From contig NZ_LMDK01000018.1 of the NCBI RefSeq assembly GCF_001425055.1, positions 62,001 through 126,000 of the forward strand: a stretch of DNA of 64,000 bases, in the 5' to 3' direction. This DNA comes from Pelomonas sp. Root1237 (GTDB taxonomy: Bacteria; Pseudomonadota; Gammaproteobacteria; Burkholderiales; Burkholderiaceae_C). A model generated the notes under the pieces. That model had not been told where the DNA came from. It saw only the letters and a list, made by a program, of their open reading frames with translations, and ran no database searches. How positions within the stretch are numbered: the first letter of the stretch is position 1; each line of letters opens with the position of its first letter. This document shows, one piece after another, positions 41,474 through 48,628 of this stretch. Both the position numbers and the translations under genes were made by a program.

Positions 41474-44400
41474 ATGAGTGTCGACATCGCGCAGCAACCT
41501 CGCAGAAAGCGCGCCAACCCCAAGGCGGCCACTCCGGCCGCTACGGCCGATGTGTTGAATGGCGGCGCCGAGCTGAGCGCTCCACGCTCGCGCCAGATCC
41601 TGGCGGCGTTGTCCGCACTGCGCGACGGCGACTTCACGATCCGCCTGCCCAACAGCTGGGACGGCATCGACGGCCAGATCGCCGCAGCCTTCAACCAGAT
41701 CACCGCCCAGGAGGCGCGCATCGCCTCCGAGGTGTCGCGGCTCTCCGCCACGGTCGGCAAGGAAGGGCGGCTCAAGCACCGCATGTCGATGCCGGGCTCG
41801 CTGGGCGGCTGGGCCACCAAGGTGGACTCGATCAACACGCTGATGGACGACCTGGTGCGGCCGACCGCCGAGATCGCGCGCACCATCGGCGCGGTGGCCA
41901 AGGGCGACCTGAGCCAGTCCATGGAGCTGGAGGTGGACGGCCGCGAGCTCAAGGGCGAGTTCCTGCGCTCCGCGCGCCTGGTCAACACCATGATCGACCA
42001 GCTGTCGGTGTTCACGAGTGAAGTGACTCGCGTGGCGCGCGAGGTGGGCACCGAGGGCAAGCTCGGCGGCCAGGCCCAGGTGAAGGGCGTGTCGGGCGTC
42101 TGGAAGGACCTGACCGACTCCGTCAACCAGATGGCCGGCAATCTGACCGCCCAGGTGCGCAACATCGCCGAGGTGACCATTGGCGTGGCCAACGGCGACC
42201 TGTCCAAGAAGATCACCGTGGACGTGCGCGGCGAGATCCTGCAACTCAAGGAAGCCACCAACACCATGGTGGACCAGCTGCGTTCGTTCGCGTCCGAAGT
42301 GACCCGGGTGGCCCGCGAGGTGGGCACCGACGGGCGCCTGGGCGGCCAGGCGGTGGTGCCCGGCGTGGCGGGCACCTGGAAGGACCTGACCGACTCGGTC
42401 AACGCGATGGCGACCAACCTGACGGCCCAGGTGCGCAATATCGCCAACGTGACGACGGCCGTGGCGCGCGGCGACCTGAGCCGCAAGATCACGGTGGACG
42501 TGAAGGGCGAGATCCTGGAGCTGAAGGAAACCATCAACACGATGGTCGACCAGCTCAACGGCTTCTCCTCCGAAGTGACCCGCGTGGCCCGCGAGGTGGG
42601 CACCGAGGGCAAGCTCGGCGGCCAGGCCGCCGTGCCCGGCGTGGCCGGGACCTGGAAGGACCTGACCGACAACGTCAACTCGATGGCGTCCAACCTGACC
42701 AACCAGGTGCGCAATATCGCGGACGTGGCCACCGCCGTGGCCAGCGGCGACTTGTCGAAAAAGATCACCGTGGAGGTCAAGGGAGAGATTCTTGCCCTGA
42801 AGAACACCATGAACACGATGGTCGACCAGCTCAACGGTTTTGCCGGCGAGGTGAGCCGCGTGGCGCGTGAGGTGGGCACGGACGGCAAGCTTGGTGGCCA
42901 GGCCCAGGTGCCCGGCGTGGCCGGCACCTGGAAGGACCTGACCGACAACGTCAACTTCATGGCCTCCAACCTGACCGGCCAGGTGCGCAACATTGCCGAG
43001 GTGACGACGGCCGTGGCCAATGGCGACCTGTCCAAGAAGATCACCGTGGACGTGCGCGGCGAGATCCTGGAGTTGAAGAACACCATCAACACCATGGTCG
43101 ACCAGCTCGGCGGCTTTGCCTCCGAAGTGACTCGCGTGGCGCGTGAGGTGGGTACCGACGGCAAGCTCGGCGGCCAGGCGCAAGGCCGCGGCGTGGCCGG
43201 CATCTGGAAGGACCTGACCGACTCCGTCAACGCGATGGCGACCAATCTGACGGCCCAGGTGCGCAACATCGCCGACGTGACCACCGCCGTGGCCAACGGC
43301 GACCTGTCCAAGAAGATCACCGTGGACGTGCGCGGCGAAATCCTGGAGCTGAAGAACACCATCAACACCATGGTCGACCAGCTCAACGGTTTTGCCGGCG
43401 AGGTAAGCCGCGTGGCGCGCGAGGTGGGCACCGACGGCAAGCTCGGTGGCCAGGCCCAGGTGCCCGGCGTGGCGGGTACGTGGAAGGACTTGACCGACAA
43501 CGTCAACTCGATGGCGTCCAACCTGACGGGCCAGGTGCGCAACATCGCCGACGTGGCGACGGCTGTGGCCGGCGGCGACCTGTCCAAGAAGATCACGGTC
43601 GACGTGAAGGGCGAGATCCTGGAGCTGAAGAACACGCTCAACACGATGGTGGATCAGCTCAACGGTTTCGCCTCGGAAGTGAGCCGTGTGGCGCGCGAGG
43701 TGGGCACGGACGGCAAGCTCGGCGGCCAGGCCCAGGTGCCCGGCGTGGCCGGCACCTGGAAGGACTTGACCGACAACGTCAACTTCATGGCCTCCAACCT
43801 GACGGGCCAGGTGCGCAACATCGCCGATGTAGCGACCGCCGTGGCCAGCGGTGACCTGTCCAAGAAGATCACCGTGGAGGTCAAGGGCGAGATCCTGGCG
43901 CTGAAGAACACGCTGAACACCATGGTGGACCAGCTCAACGGCTTCGCCTCCGAGGTGAGCCGCGTGGCCCGCGAGGTGGGCACGGACGGCAAGCTCGGTG
44001 GCCAGGCCCAGGTGCCCGGCGTGGCCGGCACCTGGAAGGACTTGACCGACAACGTCAACTTCATGGCGTCGAACCTGACCGGCCAGGTGCGCAACATCGC
44101 CGAGGTGACGACGGCCGTGGCCAACGGCGACCTGTCCAAGAAGATCACGGTGGACGTGCGCGGCGAGATCCTGGAGCTCAAGGACACCATCAACACCATG
44201 GTCGACCAGCTCAACGCCTTCGCCGGTGAAGTGACCCGCGTGGCGCGCGAGGTGGGTACCGAGGGCAAGCTGGGTGGCCAGGCACAGGTGCCCGGCGTGG
44301 CCGGCACGTGGAAGGACCTGACCGACAACGTCAACTCGATGGCCTCCAACCTGACGGGCCAGGTGCGCAACATCGCCGACGTGACCATCGCGGTGGCCAA

Positions 44401-47400: not shown

Positions 47401-48628
47401 GCTGGTGCGAGAAACCCAGGTACCTGATGACCGCGAGAACATCGAGGAGGGCGACTCGGTCCTGCTCATCATCGAGGACGACCCTCACTTCGCCCGCATC
47501 GTGCTGGGCCTGGCGCGGGACCGCGGCTTCAAGGGCCTGGTGGCGCTCAAGGGCAGCCTAGGCCTGGAGCTGGCGCGGCGCTTCAAGCCAACTGCCGTGT
47601 CGCTGGACATCTTCCTGCCCGACATGCTGGGCTGGACGGTGCTCAACCAGCTCAAGCTCGACCCGCTGACCCGCCACATCCCGGTGCAGATCTTCAGCGT
47701 CGCCGAGGAGGACCGCAACCACGGCCTGGCGCACGGCGCCTTCTCCTATGTGGTGAAGTCATCCACCAGCGAGGAGATGGAGGCGGCGCTGGACCGCATC
47801 CGCGACTTCACGGTGCCGCGCACCAAGCAGCTGCTCGTCATCGAGGACAACGACATCGAGCGCCAGGCCATCATCGAGCTGCTCGGCCATGACGACATCG
47901 AGCTGCAGGCCGTCGGTACCGGCGCGGCGGCGTTGCAGATGCTGCGTGAGCAGACCTTCGACTGCATCGTGCTGGATCTGCGCCTGCCCGACGTCAGCGG
48001 TTTCGGCCTGCTGGAGCAACTGCATGCCGACCCTTCCCTGGCGGCCGTGCCGGTCGTCGTCTTCACCGGCAAGGACCTGACGAGCGCCGAGCAAAAGCAG
48101 CTGCGTGCCCTGGCCAAGAGCGTGGTGCTCAAGGATGTGCAGAGCCCCGAACGCCTGCTCGACGAGACGGCCCTCTTCCTGCACCGCGTCGTCACCGAGC
48201 TGCCGCAGGGCAAGCAGGAGATCCTGCACAAGCTGCACGGCGCCGCCGAGATGCTGCATGGCCGACGCGTGCTGGTGGTGGACGACGACGCCCGCAACAT
48301 CTTTGCGCTGACGACGTTGCTGGAGAATCAGGAGATGCAGGTACTGACCGCCACCAGCGGCCGGGCCGCCGTCGAGATCATCCAGCACACGCCCGATCTC
48401 GACCTGGTGCTGATGGACATCATGATGCCGGACATGGATGGCTACGAGACCATGCGCGAGATCCGCTCCCACGCCGAGTTCCGCAACCTGCCCATCCTGG
48501 CCCTGACCGCCAAGGCCATGAAGGGTGATCGCGAGAAATGCCTGGAGGCGGGCGCCAGCGACTACATCTCCAAACCCGTCAACACGGCCCAGCTGCTGTC
48601 GCTGATGCGCGTGTGGCTGTACCGGTGA
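41474..48628 (+). CDS. Giant soluble hybrid histidine kinase with 14-unit poly-HAMP array, GAF and three receivers
   Basis: The product is 2384 residues. No membrane segment or signal peptide is visible. Order: N-terminal HAMP-like region (1-183), fourteen 92-residue units (184-1471), GAF-like domain (about 1472-1655), coiled coil ([20 protein letters not shown]), HisKA with His1720 ([11 protein letters not shown]), HATPase (about 1817-1946, GTGLGLAIS), and three receivers with phospho-acceptors Asp2045 (LDIFLPDM), Asp2168 (LDLRLPDV) and Asp2315 ([10 protein letters not shown]). The unit length matches fungal Nik1/Os-1 group III kinases, where poly-HAMP arrays sense osmotic stress. No HPt or output domain is present. 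The TGA shares one base with the next kinase gene. A start at 41474 follows GGGCGGGAC. Confidence 0.93.
42023..45886 (+). repeat. Tandem array of fourteen 276-bp coding repeats (poly-HAMP)
   Basis: Fourteen in-frame 276-base units with no spacer and no length change, beginning at the GTG of VTRVAREVG at 42023 and ending at 45886. Each unit encodes AREVGT(E/D)[18 protein letters not shown] followed by NLT.QVRNIA.V..AVA.GDLSKKI and a GEIL.LK.T.NTMV.QL helix, that is, one divergent and one canonical HAMP. Units 4 and 8, and 9 and 11, are nearly identical in protein; units 13 and 14 are the most diverged. Confidence 0.97.

Follow-up and report, generated by a model that had tools for sequence, protein, structure and literature searches.

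The window, a 64,000-nucleotide stretch of the Pelomonas sp. Root1237 genome, encodes a long hybrid histidine kinase on its forward strand, followed immediately by a second hybrid kinase gene whose presumed start codon overlaps the stop codon of the first. The features of the two genes are as follows.

41474..48628, + strand: poly-HAMP hybrid histidine kinase, 2384 aa (coordinates include the stop; frame open)
41585..41725, + strand: N-terminal HAMP, about residues 38-84 (boundaries approximate), placed from the gap-free 9TRK alignment of residues 37-316
41726..42016, + strand: unit 1 of 15, a degenerate di-HAMP of 97 residues (85-181), placed from the unit profile and the 97-residue spacing in relatives
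42017..45880, + strand: units 2-15, fourteen 92-residue di-HAMP units (residues 182-1469), from TRF and the REVG anchors
45329..45880, + strand: final two units (residues 1286-1469); most comparisons show them to be position-specific, that with the myxobacterial locus L151 more weakly
45950..46366, + strand: GAF domain (residues 1493-1631), from Pfam GAF_2 and Foldseek GAF matches
46316..46684, + strand: single helix predicted to run from the GAF into the DHp (residues 1615-1737), with the phospho-acceptor H1720, from an AF2 fragment model and the H-box position
46604..46807, + strand: HisKA (residues 1711-1778), from Pfam
46949..47317, + strand: HATPase_c (residues 1826-1948), from Pfam; N, G1 and G2 motifs present
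47450..47797, + strand: receiver 1, D2045 (approximate bounds), from Pfam and motif position
47819..48169, + strand: receiver 2, D2168 (approximate bounds), from Pfam and motif position
48269..48604, + strand: receiver 3 (residues 2266-2377), D2315, from Pfam and motif position
48626..48630, + strand: TGATG stop-start overlap with the next gene
48628..51078, + strand: partner hybrid kinase REC-PAS-HisKA-HATPase-REC-REC, 816 aa; the presumed start is the overlapping ATG, chosen for the overlap

TRF reports a single array at 42020-45790 with a period of 276 bp, 13.7 copies, 82% matches and 0% indels, and the 14 REVG anchors of the protein are each spaced by exactly 92 residues, which bears out the uninterrupted array of fourteen equal units proposed in a preliminary description of this DNA. 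The unit profile adds the degenerate 97-residue unit, giving 15 in total, and a HAMP can be placed ahead of unit 1 because residues 37-316 align gap-free to 9TRK (381 bits). The earlier count of about 28 HAMPs plus N-terminal ones can accordingly be made more precise: the N-terminal part consists of one HAMP and the 97-residue unit, and at two HAMPs per unit the kinase would hold about 31. That each unit pairs a divergent with a canonical HAMP holds only loosely. The best Pfam HAMP stretch does lie in the second half of a unit, but a motif search of residues 1-1500 found no DExG, the motif described in PMC3570549 as the mark of canonical HAMPs.

A Pfam scan returned HAMP in 14 stretches and HAMP_2 in 15, followed by GAF_2, HisKA, HATPase_c and three Response_reg domains, in agreement with the poly-HAMP, GAF, kinase and receiver order described earlier. 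The catalytic motifs are intact (H1720, N/G1/G2, D2045, D2168 and D2315); Pfam found no Hpt domain in the protein and no sensor domain before the kinase besides HAMP and GAF. No membrane helix, at the N-terminus or elsewhere, is indicated by a hydropathy scan of the whole protein, because the 19-residue means peak at 0.97 in the array half and at 1.52 overall, the latter within the GAF; the kinase is thus predicted to be soluble, as first described. In an AF2 model of residues 1286-1800 (mean pLDDT 62) only the GAF and the long helix can be used, and the first 50 Foldseek rows obtained with it are mostly GAF domains. The AF2 monomer of array residues 25-457 was poor (mean pLDDT 51) and was left out of the fold search.

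The first twelve of the fourteen 92-residue units share a mean protein identity of 84.6%, so the array cannot have arisen by chance. At 56 protein-invariant columns, third-position identity is 0.78, a small excess over the 0.71 expected from the codon usage of the gene. Recent tandem duplication was rejected on this comparison for most of the array, the units of which appear mostly not to be fresh copies.

Relatives of the window kinase

Bacterial poly-HAMP kinases with a region longer than that of NIK1 are already known, namely AskA and AskB of Myxococcus xanthus and Amb07 of Sorangium cellulosum (PMC7643160), and so is a change in tract length, since the tract of MXAN_6735 (AskB) is reported to be expanded or contracted relative to that of its counterpart LILAB_12790 (PMC4603909). 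As described in PMC7643160, AskB resembles the window kinase in having no transmembrane region, a long poly-HAMP tract, a kinase with several receivers, and a second hybrid kinase, AskC (MXAN_6734), encoded directly downstream. The window kinase has three of the features that mark the AskA/AskB type: no transmembrane segment, a long array followed by kinase and receivers, and an adjacent hybrid kinase gene. Further properties reported for that type are a role in the ambruticin or glycerol response and contact with MrpC and FruA; the same source reports a two-hybrid contact between receiver 3 of AskA and the AskC receiver, and its Table 1 gives AskC, and not AskA or AskB, as the binder of the tested ligand (PMC7643160).

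The likeness to AskB is drawn from this published description and from genes at the matching chromosomal place. Four loci (L151, L153, L155 and L161), from genomes of the phylum sample for a Myxococcaceae bin, carry 15 units and are followed after 87-90 nt by a REC-HK gene; their gene order and their place on the chromosome make them putative AskB orthologues. The one of the four that was scanned, L151, has the same main Pfam domains as the window kinase, again with HAMP in 14 stretches and HAMP_2 in 15. The two types differ in that their cores are distant on the tree, their interior units have no one-to-one match, and the partner has three receivers in the window locus and one in L151. Eight further loci of a second, shorter myxobacterial kinase type, AskA-like by place (L150, L152, L154 and L156-L160), have a partner-type receiver gene downstream across a gap of about 0.7-1.4 kb. 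The window kinase also draws Pfam SpoIIID at 63.9 bits, above the whole-protein cut-off, with no single stretch passing; L151 (4155-11681) does likewise and adds HTH_6 below its cut-off. Helix-turn-helix domains are reported for AskA and AskB (PMC7643160), and these overlap HAMPs and may be an artefact of summing over repeats.

Other comparisons are looser. Fungal group III kinases such as Nik1 carry one receiver and no GAF and feed the HOG pathway, a fungal pathway that bacteria are not expected to have. By description, the fungal group III proteins (Nik1/Os-1/Bos1/TcsC) share with the window kinase a cytoplasmic site, N-terminal HAMP repeats and a hybrid kinase, but fungal class III kinases have five to six HAMP repeats (PMC3418262) against the 15 units, GAF and three receivers found here; on these points the window kinase differs from Nik1, and its array is, as first stated, longer than theirs. 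Aer2 is soluble with concatenated HAMPs (PMC3570549), and the Vibrio Aer2 model matches 15 stretches of the window kinase, at 359 bits against a family cut-off of 1200; the PAS and chemoreceptor signalling domains of Aer2 were not found in the window kinase. The PDB entries 9TRK, listed there as "histidine kinase,Gcn4p", and 9TRJ are histidine kinase-Gcn4p fusions that hold a fragment, the N-terminal array, of a homologue that is a different protein, and a full-text search for either entry found no paper in the collection searched.

Among the matches listed, the nearest named record is that of Pelomonas sp. Root1217, with 98% identity in the best segment. Within the genus the gene is patchy, because 6 of 20 genomes, the window's own included, match the C-terminal 842 residues at >1500 bits; in one of the six, G008 (L143), the frame is broken. 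Relatives from G002, G016 and G010, three other genomes in the genus, also have 15 units. A probe made of the last unit and the GAF matched 24 of 398 Pseudomonadota genomes at >450 bits, the window frame being the longest of the 24, and 93 of 398 at E 1e-30, where the others listed match mainly the part after the unit. At E 1e-50, counts that concern the post-array part were 90 of 193 genomes in Myxococcota, 18 of 199 in Acidobacteriota and 16 of 246 in Planctomycetota. Unit counting gave no array row for L146-L149, which are kinase-core relatives from the same order or genus.

Unit numbers were obtained from the best 80 of 576 confirmed homologous stretches, a set biased to the most similar. 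The 75 untruncated loci have 11 (2), 12 (53), 13 (3), 14 (3), 15 (12) or 17 (2) units. Both 11-unit loci (L072 and L134) lack the 97-residue first spacing, so their frames probably start inside the array. In 40 loci hand-chosen from the phylum samples for varied frame length, and thus not random, the number runs from 5 to 15; the 5-unit loci (L156 and L175) have no 97-residue first spacing and are probably incomplete. This spacing is present in 117 of 121 untruncated rows, near-duplicates included. The 15-unit loci carry the titles Burkholderiales, Planctomycetota, Prosthecobacter (Verrucomicrobiota) and Acidobacteriaceae, several locus titles being those of metagenome bins that may be wrong, in addition to the four Myxococcota loci. 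The very long relative of the preliminary description is thus not exceptional: 15 units occur in 12 of the 75, and with 17 units at two loci the kinase was rejected as record holder. That 15 units exist elsewhere answers in part the question whether this unit number had already been described in orthologues. The protein belongs to a known bacterial kind that is widespread; it is one of the longer members, but not the longest.

Three single loci may be mentioned here. L064, in a bin labelled Planctomycetota, has 15 units and lies close to the window kinase (core path length 0.41), which suggests transfer or mis-binning. L076 has six receivers after the kinase in place of three, by a home-made receiver profile. 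The stop-to-stop frame of L089 has several hundred residues before its first HAMP, probably a non-coding extension rather than a domain.

The partner kinase gene and its surroundings

A receiver-first gene lies just downstream on the same strand at 75 of 79 loci among the best 80 of 576, where an immediate partner has the same orientation and a start between -400 and +600 nt, and one of the 80 was omitted at a contig end. The figures are lower in the two hand-picked sets, 13 of 20 in one and 6 of 20 in the other, which is from Myxococcota. The first receiver of the window partner matches all 95 distinct neighbouring partner genes, with a median identity of 47.5% and 72 above 45%; this set omits L143, whose partner is the second half of its own broken kinase, and L141, L142 and L144, which repeat L061, L069 and L066. 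Against the partner of L151, identity over 120 residues is likewise 47.5%. The other receiver genes in the same stretches served for comparison and gave a median of 31.7%, with at least 90 aligned columns in 74 of 104 and 24 of the 74 above 45%; the comparison is not clean, most of those above 45% being located in loci scored as partnerless. Of the 26 loci so scored, 21 have a receiver above 45% at another place in the stretch retrieved, often one gene beyond the adjacent position, in some cases upstream or on the opposite strand. In total, 115 of 120 loci have an immediate receiver-first gene or, nearby, a receiver above 45%. The type of kinase fused to the receiver varies: of nine loci scanned, five have HisKA (in L081 not immediately adjacent), two HWE, one HisKA_3, and L133 none. 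These comparisons suggest that the partner receiver may be a constant interface and the partner kinase a variable output.

Three further genes flank the poly-HAMP pair. A Cache-domain kinase and a LuxR-type regulator (39268-41321) have MctS and MctR as best matches, below cut-off, and a CstA symporter (51595-53787) falls below the PRK15015 cut-off with a full Pfam CstA match. All three are kept in L061, L066 and L069 and may form a pyruvate-uptake circuit of their own. No osmolyte function was found among the five neighbouring proteins scanned, and no support for osmosensing was seen at this locus.

Array evolution and a proposed relay

Unit-by-unit identities separate the ends of the array from its interior. 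In most pairs, and across phylum labels, the first unit of one array matches the first of the other and the last two likewise match the last two; the interior units are alike and match loosely. Two myxobacterial homologues, one with 12 units and one with 7, share 98 and 100% identity in their last two units and 88% in the first, and their interior units have no unique partner. Between the window and a Bradyrhizobium homologue the last two units are 86 and 86% identical, with ≤69% elsewhere in their rows and columns. The correspondence is weaker against the L151 type: five L151 units share 79-83% identity with the next-to-last unit of the window kinase, and identity reaches 72% for its last unit and 51% for its first. 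Two points go beyond the preliminary description: the ends of the array are for the most part tied to their position and the number of interior units varies, and a conserved-receiver gene adjoins the kinase at most loci.

Unit number was placed on a quick tree of 90 cores, array excluded (thinned from 113, after twelve duplicate, truncated or broken loci had been dropped). It requires 29 changes against 38-46 in 200 shuffles, and therefore follows the tree. One clade that spans several phylum labels, with 29 of its 39 rows in an alphaproteobacterial group, has 12 units in 37 of the 39. The window's clade has 15, 15, 15 and 13 units, and one myxobacterial clade has 12, 10, 10 and 7; two of the four genomes of the latter are in several contigs, so repeats may have collapsed there. 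The 15 units that the window kinase and the L151 type each have need not go back to a single inheritance.

We take the window protein to be a cytoplasmic bacterial poly-HAMP hybrid kinase of AskB-like and fungal-group-III-like layout, in which a dimeric HAMP rod probably sets the balance of kinase and phosphatase activity and the partner is probably signalled through its first receiver. Two chains would pair along the array to form a rod of about 31 stacked HAMP bundles, and a signal, received N-terminally, somewhere on the rod or at the GAF, would switch the stack from one of two states to the other. This change would reach the kinase core by way of the last two units and the continuous helix through the GAF and so set its kinase/phosphatase balance; phosphoryl groups would then pass among the three receivers, and the partner kinase would be signalled at its first receiver. 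The end-unit correspondence, the GAF-to-H1720 helix (in a model of moderate confidence) and the conserved partner receiver fit such a relay from rod to core to partner. Dimer stacking is argued from homologues, because the monomer model of the N-terminal array is poor. In Candida, CaNik1p that lacks all of its HAMPs is reported to activate Hog1p even when unstimulated, an effect that requires the phospho-histidine (PMC3848655); HAMP repeats can thus restrain a kinase. Aer2 HAMP conformers have been proposed to send opposite signals (PMC3570549).

A possible though doubtful alternative is that the GAF or the partner kinase is the true input and that the array is a scaffold or spacer of nearly neutral length. 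The differing unit numbers of close relatives in the window's clade (15 and 13) and in the myxobacterial clade would be expected of such a spacer, some of these relatives being drafts with possibly collapsed repeats. Against this, 12 units are kept almost throughout one clade even though the units are alike enough to recombine, and unit number follows the tree, although kinship alone could share a number without selection.

We regard as unlikely the proposal, made in the preliminary description by analogy with Nik1/Os-1, that the array is itself the sensor; all along its length it would then respond to osmotic or ionic change. In its favour, Pfam shows only HAMP and GAF as sensor domains ahead of the kinase, and HAMP-repeat kinases of fungi take part in osmotic signalling (PMC3418262, PMC3848655). 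However, a GAF is positioned between array and kinase, the five neighbours scanned gave no osmolyte function, and the reported ligand binder in M. xanthus is AskC (PMC7643160); osmosensing by the window kinase is an analogy only. That the array length is an assembly or duplication artefact is hardly credible, since 15 units recur in G002, G016 and G010 and the units differ at synonymous sites, for all that the assembly of the window genome is a 22-contig draft, G008 has an interrupted array frame and one X occurs in L034.

The probable relay from HAMP rod to partner receiver can be extended, tentatively and with somewhat less conviction than would make it our expectation, to the family. The poly-HAMP kinase and its neighbouring receiver-kinase could constitute a single two-kinase relay, widespread in bacteria, with the first kinase in control of any kinase type (HisKA, HWE or HisKA_3) that is fused to the conserved receiver of the partner; array length would be selected, with fixed ends, interior units gained and lost, and lineage-preferred numbers of 10, 12 and 15.

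Several fungicides cannot act on fungi without poly-HAMP kinases, and the function of the HAMP repeats is described as largely unknown (PMC3848655). Natural arrays in bacteria, which run from about 6 to 17 units and whose ends are mostly fixed, open the effect of length, together with the solved N-terminal structures, to direct test in harmless bacteria. Group III kinases were called fungal-specific in a 2024 paper (PMC11253588); since proteins with this layout were described from bacteria in 2020 and proved widespread here, layout and ancestry should be kept apart.
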